Source: an uncultured Bacilli bacterium
Lineage (GTDB): Bacteria; Bacillota_I; Bacilli_A; RF39; UBA660
DNA length: 64,000 nucleotides
Assembly: GCA_944350495.1 (NCBI GenBank)
Contig: CALVOZ010000003.1
Coordinates: 62,001-126,000, forward strand
Reading direction: 5' to 3'
The notes under the pieces: generated by a model
What the model was told of the DNA's origin: nothing
Databases searched by the model: none
The model's input: only the letters and a program-made list of their open reading frames with translations
Translations under genes and position numbers: made by a program
Part shown: piece after piece, positions 8,822 through 63,936 of the stretch
Layout of the letters: each line of letters starts with the position of its first letter
Numbering within the stretch: position 1 is the stretch's first letter

Positions 8822-8958
8822 AATCCTTTCTGATGTTTTATTCTTTGTTACAATTTTAATTTTGCTTTTTAAAATAAAACTAACGAATTTTCTCCGTAAC
8901 AGCATCCGCCGAATATTTCGATAACTGTTAACCTCGTCAACCCTCAGGTTCAGGCGCT
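8822..8958 (-). ncRNA. glmS ribozyme
   Basis: The minus-strand leader of glmS carries the ribozyme core in order: AGCGCC (cleavage expected between 8958 and 8957), GTTGACGAGG, ATCGAAATATTCGGCGGATGC, and a downstream pairing region running to just before the ribosome site. These blocks match the known glmS ribozyme consensus. Binding of glucosamine-6-phosphate triggers self-cleavage and mRNA decay, giving feedback on GlmS. The exact 3' limit of the P3/P4 region is approximate. Confidence 0.92.
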
Positions 8959-8998
8959 AAATAATTGTACTCCTTTCTTACTCAATTACTTTAAATTT

Positions 8999-36386: not shown

Positions 36387-38477
36387 ATGAAGCAGATAAA
36401 AAAAATATATTTATTTGTTTTTGCGCTATCATTTTTTTTGTTTATGAATATTGATGATGTTAAGGCCAATTATGAAATAATGGTAAATGGTACAACACCA
36501 TGTAAGTTATATAATGATTTAACTGGAAAAAAAGCAACTGGTTCATGTATTTATAAGGATGGAGATTTCGATTCATATGTATCAGGGCCAGTATGGGTAG
36601 ATAATGGTGATAAGGTCACAGTTATTACTACAAGTGCAACTATTCCGGCTCCAGAATCAGGTTATGGCAGTGAATGTAAAAGTGATTTTAATCGTATTAA
36701 GATTGATTACAATAATAAATCTTATTATGGCTATGTTTGTGGTGATTTACTAAAAAAAGTTGAAATAACAGAAGAAATGAAGCAAGAATTTCAAACCGCA
36801 GGGTTTCCAGAAAGTTATTGGGATGAATTAGCGGTATTAAAAACTGCACATCCTAGTTGGAAGTTTGTTGCGATTGATACGGGAATAACTTTTGATAAAG
36901 CGGTTAAAGGTGAAGATTCTGGCTCTAAAAGTTTAATACAAGTTACAACTTCAGCTAAACAGGGATATCTATCTACTAAGGAATCTAATTATGATTGGGA
37001 TAAAGATGAATTTACCGTGTATGATGGAAGTAATTGGTATGCGGCGAATGCTGATACAATTGCTTATTATTTAGATCCTAGAAATTTTTTATCAGATACA
37101 TTCATTTTTCAATTTGAATCAATTGTTTATGATAAAAATGTTCATACTTTAGATGGAGTACAAGCTTTATTAAAAGATGCTTATATATTAAAATTTGCAA
37201 ATTATTTTATGGAAGCTGCAACCACCCATCAAGTAAATCCGCTATATTTAGCTGCTTTATCTAGACAAGAAGTTGGAACTGCTAAAAGTACAGCAATAAG
37301 TGGTAATAAATTTACTTATAACGGCAAAAGTTACTCTAATCTATACAATTTCTATAATATAGGTGCTACTGCTGGAACTAATGCTGTATATAGAGGTTTA
37401 GTCTTTGCTGGAACTGTTCCTTCAAATAAAAGCACTAGATATGGACGTATTTGGAATACAGAACAAAAGGCTATCATTGGTGGTGCTGAATTTATTAAGA
37501 AAAGTTATATGGATTACGGTCAAAATACTAGTTATTTTAAAAAATGGAATGTTATTGCTGAATATCAAAAAGCACAAGGAAAAGACTATTATAATAACTT
37601 TACTCATCAATATATGCAAAATATTGGAGCACCTTCTGCTGAAGCAAGAAAGACGTATCAATCTTATGCAGCATTAGGGGCTTTAGATTTAAATTTTGTA
37701 TTCTATATACCAGTTTATAAAGAAATGGCTGATTCTTATGATTTACCTGCACAAGGTAATCCAAATAATCGTTTAAAAAATATTAAGATTGATAATCAAT
37801 TAATTGATGGTTTTACTTCATCAGAATTTAGTTATACTGTATATGTTGAAGGCAATGTTGAAACTGTTAATATTACAGCTGGAACAGTTAATGCTAATGC
37901 CACAGTAAAAGGTACTGGAACTAAAGAGATTGAAGTTGGTGAAAATAAATTTGAATTAATTGTTGAGGCACAGAATGGAAATATTCAAAAATATGATTTA
38001 ATTATTCATCGAGCATTACCAGATACAGGTGAAATTGTATATCCACCAGTTGAGGAAATTCTTACAAATGCTAAAGTTACATACGATGATAAATATATTA
38101 GTAATTTAACATTTACATCAAAAACAGTTGATTTTAAAAATGCAATATTAGCAGCTAGTGATACGGCACAAGTAGAAATTAAATCAGGAAATACTGAGAA
38201 AAAAGATGGATATTTAGCTACTGGTGATACAGTAACTATTACAAGCGGTGAAGAAACTAAAACATATTCTATTGTGTTATATGGTGATATCAATGGTGAT
38301 GGAAAAATAAATGCTATTGATTTACTTAAAATTCAAAAACATATTTTAAAGGATAGCTTATTATCGGGTGCACAATTAGAATCTTCTGATGTTAATAAAG
38401 ACGGAGTAATTAATGCAGTAGATTTACTTAAAATTCAAAAACATATTTTAGGTGACTCATTTGTAAGTCAACAATAG
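36387..38477 (+). CDS. Secreted N-acetylglucosaminidase-like wall hydrolase with C-terminal dockerin
   Basis: A 696-residue exported protein. A signal peptide (about 1-27, ending VKA) is followed by an SH3-like region with Cys pairs, then a GH73/LytG-like N-acetylglucosaminidase domain (about 140-460). That domain has FPESYWDELAVLKTAHPSWK, YYLDPRNFL, and AALSRQEVGTA with the likely catalytic Glu. A cadherin-like beta-sandwich follows (about 468-550). The C-terminus (632-696) is a type I dockerin: two calcium loops, DINGDGKINAID and DVNKDGVINAVD, each followed by LLKIQKHIL. The next gene encodes a cohesin with a membrane anchor, so the enzyme is probably held on the cell by a cohesin-dockerin contact. 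TGTTATAAT precedes it. Confidence 0.88.
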   Translation: MKQIKKIYLFVFALSFFLFMNIDDVKANYEIMVNGTTPCKLYNDLTGKKATGSCIYKDGDFDSYVSGPVWVDNGDKVTVITTSATIPAPESGYGSECKSDFNRIKIDYNNKSYYGYVCGDLLKKVEITEEMKQEFQTAGFPESYWDELAVLKTAHPSWKFVAIDTGITFDKAVKGEDSGSKSLIQVTTSAKQGYLSTKESNYDWDKDEFTVYDGSNWYAANADTIAYYLDPRNFLSDTFIFQFESIVYDKNVHTLDGVQALLKDAYILKFANYFMEAATTHQVNPLYLAALSRQEVGTAKSTAISGNKFTYNGKSYSNLYNFYNIGATAGTNAVYRGLVFAGTVPSNKSTRYGRIWNTEQKAIIGGAEFIKKSYMDYGQNTSYFKKWNVIAEYQKAQGKDYYNNFTHQYMQNIGAPSAEARKTYQSYAALGALDLNFVFYIPVYKEMADSYDLPAQGNPNNRLKNIKIDNQLIDGFTSSEFSYTVYVEGNVETVNITAGTVNANATVKGTGTKEIEVGENKFELIVEAQNGNIQKYDLIIHRALPDTGEIVYPPVEEILTNAKVTYDDKYISNLTFTSKTVDFKNAILAASDTAQVEIKSGNTEKKDGYLATGDTVTITSGEETKTYSIVLYGDINGDGKINAIDLLKIQKHILKDSLLSGAQLESSDVNKDGVINAVDLLKIQKHILGDSFVSQQ

Positions 38478-38487
38478 GAGGAAAAAA

Positions 38488-39813
38488 ATGAAAACAATTA
38501 GAAATTTATTATTATTTATAATAATTAGTTTTTGTTCATTATTTATTTGTGATAATGTCTTTGCGGCAAGTGCAAGCATCTCTGTTAAAGGAACAAGTAG
38601 AAAAATAATAGTAGGTGAGACTGTTAAAGTTACAATAACTGTTTCTTCTAGCTCTAAAAGTTCTCCATTAGGAGCATGGGAATTTGATGTTAAATATGAT
38701 TCTACTAAATTATCGTTGGTTAATTCTACCCTAGAGAGTAAAACAAGATCTGTTGGATATTCAAATAATGATTCGACATTTTCAAAAACATATACTATGA
38801 CGTTTAAAGCTAAAAAATCAGGTACTGCTAAAGTGTATGTCGATAATTCTTTAGTTGTTGATTTTAATACTGAAAAGCCTGTAACATCAAGTGAGGGAAG
38901 CACTTCATTATCGATAATTACACAAAGCGAATTAGAGGAATCTTATTCAAAAGATAATTATTTAAGTTCACTATCAGTTAGTGGATATAATTTAACACCT
39001 AAATTTGATAAAAATACTTTAGAGTATTCCTTGGAGGTCGAAAATGATGTTAGAGAAATAACTGTAAGTGCTAAAGCAAATGATTCTAAAGCCGAGGTTG
39101 AAGGTACTGGTAAACATTCTTTAGTTGAGGGCAGTAATGAAATTAAAGTTAGTGTTACAGCCGAAAATGGTAATGTTAGAAATTATGTTTTAAATGTTAT
39201 CGTTAAAGAATTAGATCCTGTTTATATAAATATAGAAGAAAAGACATATACGGTAGTAAGGAAAACAGAAGATTTAGAGTATCCAACGACATTTATCCCC
39301 ACTACTACTATAATTCAAAGTGAAACTGTACCAGCTTTTGAATCAACAATTACTGGATATCTTTTAGTAGCACTTCGTGATGAAAACGGTAATGTTGAAT
39401 TTTATATTGTTGATGGGGATACATACAAATTATATAAAGAAACTAGTTTTAGTGGTATAGTTTTATATATAATTGAACCGGAGAAAGATGATATTCCTGA
39501 AGGTTACGAATTAACTAGTATGTCTATTGCTGGTGTTGCCACAAATGCCTATAAATCAGACAGTGCTAATTATCCATTACTTTATGGAATAAATGTTCAA
39601 ACAGGTAAAACTAACTGGTATACATATGATGAAGATGAATTAACTTTACAAAGATATATGGAACCAAAAAATGTTGAAGTAGAAGAAGTCGATGCTACTA
39701 AATATTTTATTATAATTGGAATACTGGGTGGTTCAACTATTCTCCTATTAGTATTTATTCTATTATTAAATTCTAAATTGAGAAAATATGTAAGTAAAAA
39801 GATAGCTATTTAG
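38488..39813 (+). CDS. Membrane-anchored cohesin-domain protein
   Basis: A 441-residue protein with a signal peptide ending FAA (about 26). A cohesin-like domain occupies about 29-144: VGETVKVTITV, LGAWEFDVKYDSTKLSLV and a C-terminal beta-rich part. A cadherin-like beta-sandwich (about 157-240) resembles the one in the preceding hydrolase. A further extracellular part of unknown fold follows, then a single membrane segment (about 406-427) and a basic cytoplasmic tail. It starts 10 bases after the dockerin gene, with GGAGG, so the two are one operon. The logical reading is a one-cohesin anchor for its neighbour. I infer cohesin from the fold pattern; a generic adhesion domain is the alternative. 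Confidence 0.75.
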   Translation: MKTIRNLLLFIIISFCSLFICDNVFAASASISVKGTSRKIIVGETVKVTITVSSSSKSSPLGAWEFDVKYDSTKLSLVNSTLESKTRSVGYSNNDSTFSKTYTMTFKAKKSGTAKVYVDNSLVVDFNTEKPVTSSEGSTSLSIITQSELEESYSKDNYLSSLSVSGYNLTPKFDKNTLEYSLEVENDVREITVSAKANDSKAEVEGTGKHSLVEGSNEIKVSVTAENGNVRNYVLNVIVKELDPVYINIEEKTYTVVRKTEDLEYPTTFIPTTTIIQSETVPAFESTITGYLLVALRDENGNVEFYIVDGDTYKLYKETSFSGIVLYIIEPEKDDIPEGYELTSMSIAGVATNAYKSDSANYPLLYGINVQTGKTNWYTYDEDELTLQRYMEPKNVEVEEVDATKYFIIIGILGGSTILLLVFILLLNSKLRKYVSKKIAI

Positions 39814-43192: not shown

Positions 43193-43221
43193 TTGACATT
43201 TAATTATAAATTTGATAAAAT
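43193..43221 (+). promoter_or_regulatory. OLE RNA promoter
   Basis: A perfect TTGACA (43193-43198), 17-base spacer and TAAAAT (43216-43221). The predicted RNA start is near 43228. Confidence 0.75.
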
Positions 43222-43227
43222 GTATCA

Positions 43228-43820
43228 CGTTGATGGCACATTATTCTAGTCAATTTCATTTACTATGAAGACGGGGGTAAAATACCGTTAAAGGGCATAT
43301 ATTGAAACTTCTGGTGATTGCTTCTTACGCCCAGTTTGGGGTGATTGCTGAAAGGTAGATTGTTGGACATCCATAATGGCATATGTAAATGTTCCAGTGA
43401 TCATTGAATAAGATTTGATGCTGTTGCAAATCGTTTAAACCTACCATGTGGCGTAAGTTACAGGTAGCGTAGCTTGTCTTGAGTGATTTGTGGGGATAAT
43501 AGAACTTAACGAAAATAAAATTTTTAGCTAGAATTTCATTTTCAATTGCTATTTGAAACATTCATTGCAAAAGAGAATTAATAGTAAATATGTTGTTGAG
43601 GAAAACTCCTAGAATGTCGATAATGTAAGATTGCAGTACGTACTAAGTGGTAATCAAGCCGTATACTTGGTAACGGTATACCTTATTCCTTAAAGGGGAA
43701 CCGCAATCATGGTAACGTGATGTGGAATATGGAGAAATTCTGCTTGACCTAAGACGTAAAGTTAATTACGTTATTAGCCATCCTAATTTGTATCTAAAAG
43801 GGCAGTGGCCCTTTTTATTT
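43228..43820 (+). ncRNA. ole: OLE RNA (ornate large extremophilic RNA)
   Basis: About 590 bases with no convincing coding frame lie between a strong promoter and an intrinsic terminator. They are immediately upstream of an OapA-family gene and then folD. Known OLE RNAs are about 600 nt, highly structured, and sit next to oapA in the folD/xse/isp region of Firmicutes; these points match in size, order and neighbours. The base composition is richer in G and C than the flanks. Local helices are visible, for example ACGTAA/TTACGT (about 43754-43772) and ATTGC/GCAAT (about 43631-43708). OLE with OapA forms a membrane RNP linked to stress tolerance. The identification rests on context; I could not align it to the family model. 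Confidence 0.8.
43796..43820 (+). terminator. OLE RNA terminator
   Basis: AAAAGGGC, AGTG loop, GCCCTTTTT. It ends 23 bases before oapA, so oapA needs read-through or a separate start. Confidence 0.85.
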
Positions 43821-43843
43821 TAAATAACATGGTGAGGTAAATA

Positions 43844-44398
43844 ATGAAAAAAACAAAAAAAGAAGAAAACAAAAAGAAAAACAATAATTATGCATGGGTA
43901 GCTAAATTAGCAATTATGGCATTTACTATTTCATTCGTATTTTCTTTTGTATCTGAAATATCTTTAAAAAATGCTAATTTATTCATAAGTATTATTGTTG
44001 TATTATTGTTTATATTTATAGGTATTATTTTTGATATGGTTGGTGTAGCCATTACTACGGCTGATGAAGCTCCATTTCATTCGATGAGTTCTCGAAATAA
44101 GATTAAGGCTGCTAAAGTTGCAGTCATTTTAAAGAAAAATGCTGATAAAATGTCATCGTTTTGCAATGACGTTATTGGTGATATATGTGGTATTATTTCT
44201 GGTTCGGCTGGAGTTGTTATAGCTACTAATATTAGTGAGTTAGCTGGTATACCATTTTTATATGCAACATTGATTACAACAGCGGTTATTGCTGCCTTAA
44301 CAATTGGCGGTAAAGGTTATGAAAAGACGTTTGCAATTAAGAAAAGTAATTCTATCTTATATGCTTTTGCTAAAACAATTAGTATTTTTTATAGATAA
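43844..44398 (+). CDS. oapA: OLE-associated membrane protein A
   Basis: A 184-residue membrane protein that anchors OLE RNA at the membrane in relatives. After a Lys/Asn-rich N-terminus (1-18), membrane segments lie near 20-40, 48-72, 112-135 and 138-160. The family core is present: IFDMVGVAITTADEAPFHSM followed by SFCNDVIGDICGIISGSAG. I recall this core, with DxxGV, ADE-PFHSM and CNDVxGDICGIISG, from Bacillus halodurans OapA. Its position directly after the large RNA and before folD strengthens both calls. GGTGAGG precedes ATG 43844. It has its own terminator. Confidence 0.85.
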   Translation: MKKTKKEENKKKNNNYAWVAKLAIMAFTISFVFSFVSEISLKNANLFISIIVVLLFIFIGIIFDMVGVAITTADEAPFHSMSSRNKIKAAKVAVILKKNADKMSSFCNDVIGDICGIISGSAGVVIATNISELAGIPFLYATLITTAVIAALTIGGKGYEKTFAIKKSNSILYAFAKTISIFYR

Positions 44399-44426
44399 AA
44401 ATAAAAACTTAACGGTTTTTATTTTT
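44397..44426 (+). terminator. Terminator after oapA
   Basis: AAATAAAAAC, short loop, GTTTTTATTTTTG. Confidence 0.65.
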
Positions 44427-44551
44427 GTTTACATTATTTAATGTAAACAATTAAAAAAAATTAAGTTTTTGTTTGAAATACTATCTTTTTTGCTATAATT
44501 AGAGTAGAGATAACGTAAACGTTACTTGAGATTATTGGGGTGAAATAAATA

Positions 44552-45394
44552 ATGAAACAAATTATAGATGGAGAAGCACTTAGCTTAAAAATACAAGAAG
44601 AAATTAAAAAAGATATTAAGAGTTGTATGATAAGACCTAGTGTAGCAGTTATACAAGTAGGTGATAATCCTGCAAGCAATTCTTATATTAAAAGAAAAGA
44701 AGTTGCGTGTAATAATGTTGGTGTTTACTTTAGACTATATAAATTTGATGAAGGAACACCGGAATTAACAATTATTAATAAAATTAAAGAGTTAAACAAT
44801 GACGAGTATGTTAATGGAATTCTTGTTCAATTACCATTACCAGAACAATATAATGAAAAAAGAATCGTTAATAGCATAATCAATAGTAAAGATGTTGATG
44901 GATTAACAGATATTAATGTTGGTCGTATGATAAATGGTAAAAAGACATTAATTCCTTGTACACCACAGGGAATAATGCGAATGCTGGAAGAATATGAAGT
45001 CGATTTGACTGGAAAGCATGTTGTGATTGTTGGCCGTGGAAAGTTAGTTGGAAGACCATTAATTACTTTAGTTTTGTCTAAAGATGCAACTGTAACTGTC
45101 TGTCATAGTAAAACTAATAATTTAGCAGAGATGACTAGACAAGCTGATGTTCTTATTTGTGCATGTGGAGTTCCAAAATTAATCACTGCTGATATGGTAA
45201 AAGAAGATGTAGTTGTAATTGATGCTGGAACTAATCGCGTTGATGGTAAATTATGCGGTGATGTCGACTTTGCAGAAGTAAGTAAAAAAGCATCTTTAAT
45301 AACTCCTGTGCCAAAAGGTGTTGGACCAATGACAGTAGCAATGTTATTACAAAATATAATTACATGTTATAACAATAAAAATACTACTAAGTAG
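44552..45394 (+). CDS. folD: Bifunctional methylene-THF dehydrogenase / methenyl-THF cyclohydrolase
   Basis: FolD interconverts methylene- and formyl-tetrahydrofolate with NADP. The 280-residue protein has VGDNPASNSYIKRKEVAC with the catalytic Lys, QLPLPEQY, and the cofactor-site motif VVIVGRGKLVGRPL. The C-terminal signature is TPVPKGVGPMTVAML. Two positions depart from the usual form: GRG in place of GRS, and VPKGVG in place of VPGGVG. The upstream region has TGCTATAAT (about 44491-44500) and an ACGTAAACGT-type inverted repeat (44513-44524). Proximity to OLE RNA is the known arrangement. Confidence 0.94.
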   Translation: MKQIIDGEALSLKIQEEIKKDIKSCMIRPSVAVIQVGDNPASNSYIKRKEVACNNVGVYFRLYKFDEGTPELTIINKIKELNNDEYVNGILVQLPLPEQYNEKRIVNSIINSKDVDGLTDINVGRMINGKKTLIPCTPQGIMRMLEEYEVDLTGKHVVIVGRGKLVGRPLITLVLSKDATVTVCHSKTNNLAEMTRQADVLICACGVPKLITADMVKEDVVVIDAGTNRVDGKLCGDVDFAEVSKKASLITPVPKGVGPMTVAMLLQNIITCYNNKNTTK

Positions 45395-58171: not shown

Positions 58172-58370
58172 ATATTATTTGTTCGAAGGAGTATTTATAT
58201 TGAATTATAAAGAGAGCTTATGGTTGGTGAAAATAAGCTAATAAAATATAAAGAAGACATCGAACGTTAAATAAACGTATTTCTGCGTTAAAGAATTAAG
58301 AGCATAATAAAGTATTATGAAGTAGGGTGGTACCGCGAATATTCGTCCCTACAAGCGTAATACTTTTTTA
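58172..58370 (+). promoter_or_regulatory. T-box riboswitch (Asp specifier) for aspS
   Basis: The T-box sequence AGGGTGGTACCGCG is at 58324-58337. Stem I features are seen upstream: AAGAGAG, the short distal arm with TTGGTGAAAATAAGC, and a specifier loop with GAC at 58256-58258 (an Asp codon) followed by A. The terminator form pairs AAAGTATTA (58309-58317) with TAATACTTT (58358-58366) around GTAGGG/CCCTAC, followed by T's. Uncharged tRNA(Asp) would stabilise the antiterminator and turn on aspS2. The specifier position is inferred from layout. Confidence 0.9.
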
Positions 58371-63755: not shown

Positions 63756-63760
63756 AAAGT

Positions 63761-63936
63761 TGCTAGAGAATTAGGTTGCCTTTTTCTGAAAAACCTACTA
63801 AATTAACGAATTGGGAGTCAGCGGCATTAAGCGGTGTTGAATACTTTAATTTATTAAAGAATCCTAAAGTTTAATCCAAGACACCCACCTGGAAGACCAG
63901 GTTTATCGTTGTTGGCGCCTATTCTTTGGCTTTTTT
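63761..63936 (+). ncRNA. ssrS: 6S RNA
   Basis: About 175 bases from a consensus promoter to a T-run. The 5' end GCTAGAGAATTAGG pairs with the 3' end CCTATTCTTTGGC to form the closing stem. The 3' half has ACACCCACCTGGAAGACCAGG, a small hairpin, then TTTATCGTTGTTGGCGCC. This parallels the 3' central-bubble hairpin and the GCGGC-containing arm of known 6S RNAs. 6S RNA mimics an open promoter and binds sigma-A polymerase in stationary phase. The assignment is by architecture, without alignment to the family model. Confidence 0.7.

Follow-up and report, generated by a model that had tools for sequence, protein, structure and literature searches.

An OLE RNA and its protein partner OapA in a small-genome lineage of Bacilli

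The OLE locus and its transcription

The window analyzed here is a 64,000-nucleotide stretch of contig CALVOZ010000003.1 (positions 62,001 to 126,000, forward strand) from an uncultured RF39 bacterium. The source genome is 1.33 Mb in 9 contigs and 94% complete, in agreement with the original prediction of an AT-rich, small-genome Firmicute host. The coordinates predicted for the locus, 43193-44398, proved right and run from the -35 box of a promoter through the OapA stop codon. The locus and its downstream neighbor comprise the following features, with all positions given in the window:

43193..43221, + strand: sigma-70-type promoter TTGACA-17-TAAAAT, 11/12 consensus matches, TG before the -10 box
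43217..43797, + strand: OLE RNA (RF01071), covariance model, full model length
43796..43815, + strand: intrinsic terminator between OLE and oapA, 8-bp stem and 4-nt loop, then U-rich
43844..44398, + strand: oapA, encoding a 184-aa membrane protein with a CNNM-like predicted fold (ORF, profile, AlphaFold/Foldseek)
44552..45394, + strand: folD, THF_DHG_CYH domains

The noncoding block had been proposed to be OLE RNA, and the covariance-model check upheld this. The RF01071 model matched the + strand at 43217-43797 end to end (model positions 1-616) with 336.5 bits and an E-value of 3.4e-95, against a gathering score of 50. The same search found a single OLE copy in the source genome and matched 0/14 control genomes. 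Two further descriptions of the block were accurate: it is noncoding, with no credible ORF on the + strand, and it is relatively GC-rich, at 35.3% compared to 28.7% in the window, the 97th percentile among 581-nt stretches. The neighbors are also those predicted, with the oapA start codon lying 47 nt past the model end and folD following. That the block is another large structured RNA, resembling OLE by chance, has a negligible probability and we rejected it: the match exceeds the gathering score by 286 bits over the entire model, the defining neighbor oapA is present, and we found no point in favor of the idea. The locus is a genuine OLE-OapA pair of an established kind.

folD probably forms its own transcription unit, and it is found near OLE and oapA in 3/4 other genus members as well. 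Between oapA and folD, at 44424-44450, lies the palindrome GTTTACATTATTTAATGTAAAC, a possible operator. Other Rfam matches at gathering level in the window are a glmS ribozyme (8826-8969), a T-box leader (58175-58353) and 6S RNA (63757-63936).

The block was predicted to have its own consensus promoter and its own terminator, and both elements recur in relatives. The promoter precedes OLE in all genus members, and a promoter-like site with at least 10/12 matches sits at the equivalent place in 29/30 OLE relatives; the transcript probably begins near 43228, ~7 nt past the -10 box. A GC-rich hairpin followed by a U-tract comes after OLE in all five genus genomes, with stem sequences that differ between them. 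Transcribed from this strong promoter and mostly ending at this terminator, an OLE RNA of ~570 nt should outnumber OapA messages, and judging from these signals the RNA would also be in excess over OapA protein. The oapA start lies just 28 nt past the terminator in the window, which leaves little room for another promoter, so oapA there probably needs terminator read-through. Two other genus members (G159 and G229) have a TTGACA-like promoter-like site between the terminator and oapA. Together with the terminator in 5/5 genus genomes, these new sites make it plausible that RNA and protein dosage are uncoupled. The H. halodurans OLE cluster, in contrast, is reported as a single polycistronic transcript (PMC12265935).

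This arrangement could also be read as that of a leader or attenuator, wherein the main role of the structured RNA is to control oapA through the terminator at 43796-43815. The position of the terminator between RNA and oapA, so close to the start codon and with little promoter room, suits such a role in the window. In relatives, however, oapA can have promoter-like sites past the terminator (G159, G229), can be separated from OLE by three ORFs, two long membrane-type and one glycosyltransferase-like (G136), or can be unlinked from OLE on a separate contig (G200, genus g85). In H. halodurans, OLE is also abundant as an RNA in its own right (PMC12265935). A leader function is thus very unlikely.

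Architecture of the RNA and its short relatives

We assigned the stems from the Rfam alignment, using the names given in the papers; the alignment places these elements in the window's OLE:

43276..43283, + strand: L4 loop GGUAAAAU, where Kretsch et al. 2025 place the A-A dimer bridge B1
43296..43305, + strand: J4a/5, the kink-turn's 5' strand, shorter by a base in the window and G053 than in most relatives
43329..43333, + strand: L5 loop GCCCA, conserved, dimer bridge B2
43375..43382, + strand: L6 loop AAUGGCAU, conserved, dimer bridge B2
43404..43409, + strand: J6/7 UUGAAU (usually UGGAGA), the 3' strand of kink-turn 1b
43412..43432, + strand: P7 hairpin, shortened
43441..43467, + strand: P8 hairpin, z-score -3.7
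43511..43543, + strand: P9.3 hairpin, with kissing-loop palindrome AGCU (43526-43529) inside UAGCUA

In the Rfam alignment, the window's OLE retains P4 with its A-rich loop, P5, P6, a short P7, P8 and P9.3; the small P11 hairpin is missing. It shares its length, stem order and L4, L5 and L6 loops with the full-length OLEs of H. halodurans, C. acetobutylicum and Caloramator, as well as a palindromic L9.3 and an oapA just downstream. It differs from this class in having a short P7, no P11, changed kink-turn strands and an AT-rich sequence.

The dimer elements are all kept, namely the L4 adenosines, L5 GCCCA, L6 and the palindromic AGCU of L9.3. P9.3 could be delimited in 52 of the available OLEs, and 49 of these have an L9.3 palindrome, compared to 22 expected from shuffled loops. 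These palindromes are nearly always centered on GGCC, AGCU, GUAC or GAUC, with a few others. Kretsch et al. 2025 cited covariation among GGCC, GAUC and AGCU in support of an OLE dimer (PMC12286853); GUAC, which we found in the P9.3 loop of four loci (L008, L079, L092 and L095), is a further palindrome beyond those named there. By analogy, the window's OLE RNA would fold and form a dimer, with L4, L5/L6 and the self-complementary L9.3 as its contacts.

The kink-turn is nearly invariant among full-length relatives, where tandem GA elements are present in J4a/5 in 54/55 and in J6/7 in 52/55, and the closing C-G pair in 51/55. Exceptions include the window and its sister G053, with J4a/5 shorter by one base and UGGAGA changed to UUGAAU in J6/7. 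The window's kink-turn has the tandem GA elements, while the closing C-G pair is replaced; a U-A pair could take its place if the J4a/5 gap is re-registered, although this is a single event and weak evidence. With these altered strands, the 5' domain of the window's OLE may in part adopt a different fold.

Most OLEs in the order belong to one of two length classes, ~540-620 nt or ~480-520 nt. Of the short or reduced OLEs, 14 could be aligned (L141, L158, L160, L161, L163-L168, L171, L174, L177 and L178), and in all of them P7, P8 and the J4a/5 strand of the kink-turn are absent. P9.3 is lost as well, except in L178 and perhaps L171, and with it the L9.3 dimer contact would be lost in the short lineage. 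The L4, L5 and L6 loops are retained. In a quick tree of OapA, the proteins of 25 short-class loci fall on one side of a branch with support 91, a distribution that takes one change against a mean of 22 when shuffled. The window's OapA lies outside this clade, and the five members of its genus form a single long-class clade (95). Members of genera g22 and g41 occur on both sides of the branch, which suggests that RNA and protein were exchanged as a unit or that the genus calls are imperfect.

OapA and the undetected partners

The window's OapA has no Pfam or NCBIfam match over cutoff; its best Pfam match is CNNM, at 12.8 bits against a cutoff of 28.4. We built an OapA profile from 22 proteins encoded beside OLE in relatives and searched GTDB genomes, which returned many Bacilli and Clostridia MAGs along with named species. 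OLE lies just upstream in 9/9 of the matches from other genomes that were checked, among them Caloramator quimbayensis, Pseudalkalibacillus salsuginis and Bacillus pinisoli, in line with the predicted identity of the protein. The OapAs of the window's genus keep the family-invariant residues. Among the closest MAGs with OapA, many probably come from animal guts, judging by their titles (rabbit-type 'Lapin' isolates, goat cecum and water deer rectum).

OapA is predicted to adopt the CNNM/CorC-like transmembrane fold of Mg2+ transporters. Its AlphaFold model (pLDDT 89.8) has as its top four Foldseek matches in the PDB the transmembrane domains of MtCorB and TpCorC, with probabilities of 0.96-1.00 and modest E-values of 4.4e-3 to 0.74; a direct PDB sequence search returned nothing of note. 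The structural result agrees with the published likeness of OapA to the transmembrane domain of MpfA (PMC11332333). CNNM proteins such as MpfA, CorC and CorB share with OapA a predicted fold and a weak similarity across the family, the CNNM Pfam model matching 30/37 OapAs at E<=0.01. Unlike them, OapA has no CBS or CorC domain and works with an RNA.

The original prediction had suggested looking for OapB and OapC homologs elsewhere in the genome; the searches were run and neither was detected, which sets this genome apart from the hosts of full-length OLE. OapC, of the L7Ae family (YbxF), is absent from the source genome at E<=1, and its family is above cutoff in 0/288 genomes of the order, with matches in B. 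subtilis and other controls. For OapB, we used as query an H. halodurans fragment identified through PDB 7k9b. It was absent from the source genome, had no credible match in the four other genus members, and was matched in 4/5 other OLE-bearing genomes searched in parallel (E 1.6e-6 to 9.3e-17). A KOW search of the source genome gave two matches sized like L24 and NusG and two weak ones in larger ORFs. An OapB could have been missed, since the genome is 94% complete, while a missed OapC is unlikely because OapC is missing throughout the order. A bS21 gene is present in the source genome, and no MpfA-type protein was found there.

OLE and OapA across the order

We surveyed 288 genomes drawn from the window's order, all assigned to one family. 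OLE was found in 166 and OapA in 170; 164 have both, 2 have OLE only, 6 have OapA only and 116 have neither. At least 4 of the 8 single-gene cases sit at contig ends, with OLE truncated in G128 and G266 and OapA at contig starts in G278 and G286. OapA without OLE, or the reverse, was rejected as a real state, most exceptions being contig ends. Two cases remain, both in incomplete MAGs: an intact oapA (L131, G264) with OLE absent from the 4 kb upstream and the rest of the assembly, and an OLE (L133, G065) with oapA absent from the 3.5 kb downstream. A looser search, run without a positive control of its own, recovered OLE in 0 of 30 OLE-negative genomes.

MpfA is anticorrelated with OLE across the phylum (PMC11332333). 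Within the order, full MpfA/CNNM proteins are near-equal in frequency, with 10/166 in OLE-bearing and 6/122 in OLE-lacking genomes (Fisher p 0.80). Replacement of OLE by MpfA in OLE-lacking relatives was therefore rejected for the order; its loss of OLE is not matched by a gain of MpfA, unlike the phylum-wide pattern.

These data bear on whether the window's OLE, be it transcribed or silent, is a relic that decays as the genome shrinks and no longer forms a working particle. Its P7 is shortened, its P11 missing and its kink-turn strands altered; it scores 336 bits where free-living species reach 510-547; and 122/288 sampled relatives have no OLE match, which makes OLE dispensable in the lineage. 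Against decay, the RNA spans the full model with conserved L4, L5 and L6 and a palindromic L9.3, its promoter and terminator are conserved, and OapA is intact. Both genes are kept in 5/5 genus members, whose OapA was inherited as one clade with its family-invariant residues. We consider a relic unlikely. With high probability, the product of the locus is instead an established type of OLE ribonucleoprotein, reduced to OLE and OapA; the RNA would be in excess and the particle a membrane-bound dimer. OapA, as a CNNM/CorC-like membrane protein, would bind OLE RNA and anchor the particle at the membrane, a location proposed by analogy. The host's particle would consist essentially of OLE and OapA, perhaps with ribosomal bS21, and would leave out OapB and OapC. 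By the same analogy, it would serve in adaptation to stress and to divalent metals, including Mg2+, as shown in H. halodurans.

For the order as a whole, we propose a broader model, to which we give an even chance. OLE and OapA would form a two-part machine in which full-length RNAs retain the kink-turn for their own architecture and not for OapC, because they keep it where the L7Ae-type protein is absent. One lineage of single origin would have shed P7, P8, nearly always P9.3, and the kink-turn, with its OapA diverging alongside, and species losing OLE would have done so without taking up MpfA, which argues against simple replacement.

OLE is, to our knowledge, one of the largest bacterial RNAs without a known function, its biochemical role having been unknown for ~20 years. 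Lineages that run OLE with fewer parts reveal which parts are indispensable: OLE and OapA almost never separate, and OapB and OapC are expendable. P7, P8, P9.3 and the kink-turn disappear almost as a single unit, providing natural deletion variants for structural work, and the order is a lineage in which OLE loss comes without MpfA. Three results add most to the earlier picture: full-length RNAs keep the kink-turn although OapC is absent; P7, P8, P9.3 and the kink-turn disappear together in a single OapA clade; and OLE-negative relatives show no gain of MpfA.

The suggestion that this lineage widens the known range of OLE did not hold. Fernando & Breaker 2024 searched GTDB and reported 2,822 OLE RNAs in Bacillota (PMC11332333), including variant 1 (TANB77) and variant 2 (RF39) from uncultured, reduced-genome gut lineages in which OapB and OapC are mostly missing. 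Given that report of reduced-genome gut clades, the host range is not new, and with 166/288 genomes of the order carrying OLE a range extension was rejected. OLE in a small-genome gut Firmicute is already published, and the window's locus is a sound, ordinary member. Its host is probably gut-associated, and like the RF39 hosts of variant 2 it has a reduced genome, one in which OapB and OapC were not detected. The RNA itself is not variant 2, an assignment ruled out because it keeps P7 (short), P8 and P9.3, whereas variant 2 is wholly without P7 and P8. Elsewhere in the window (36387-39813), two adjoining genes encode proteins that are secreted or surface-located. Both proteins have cadherin-like domains and the first has a type I dockerin domain as well, a pair unexpected for a 1.3-Mb genome.
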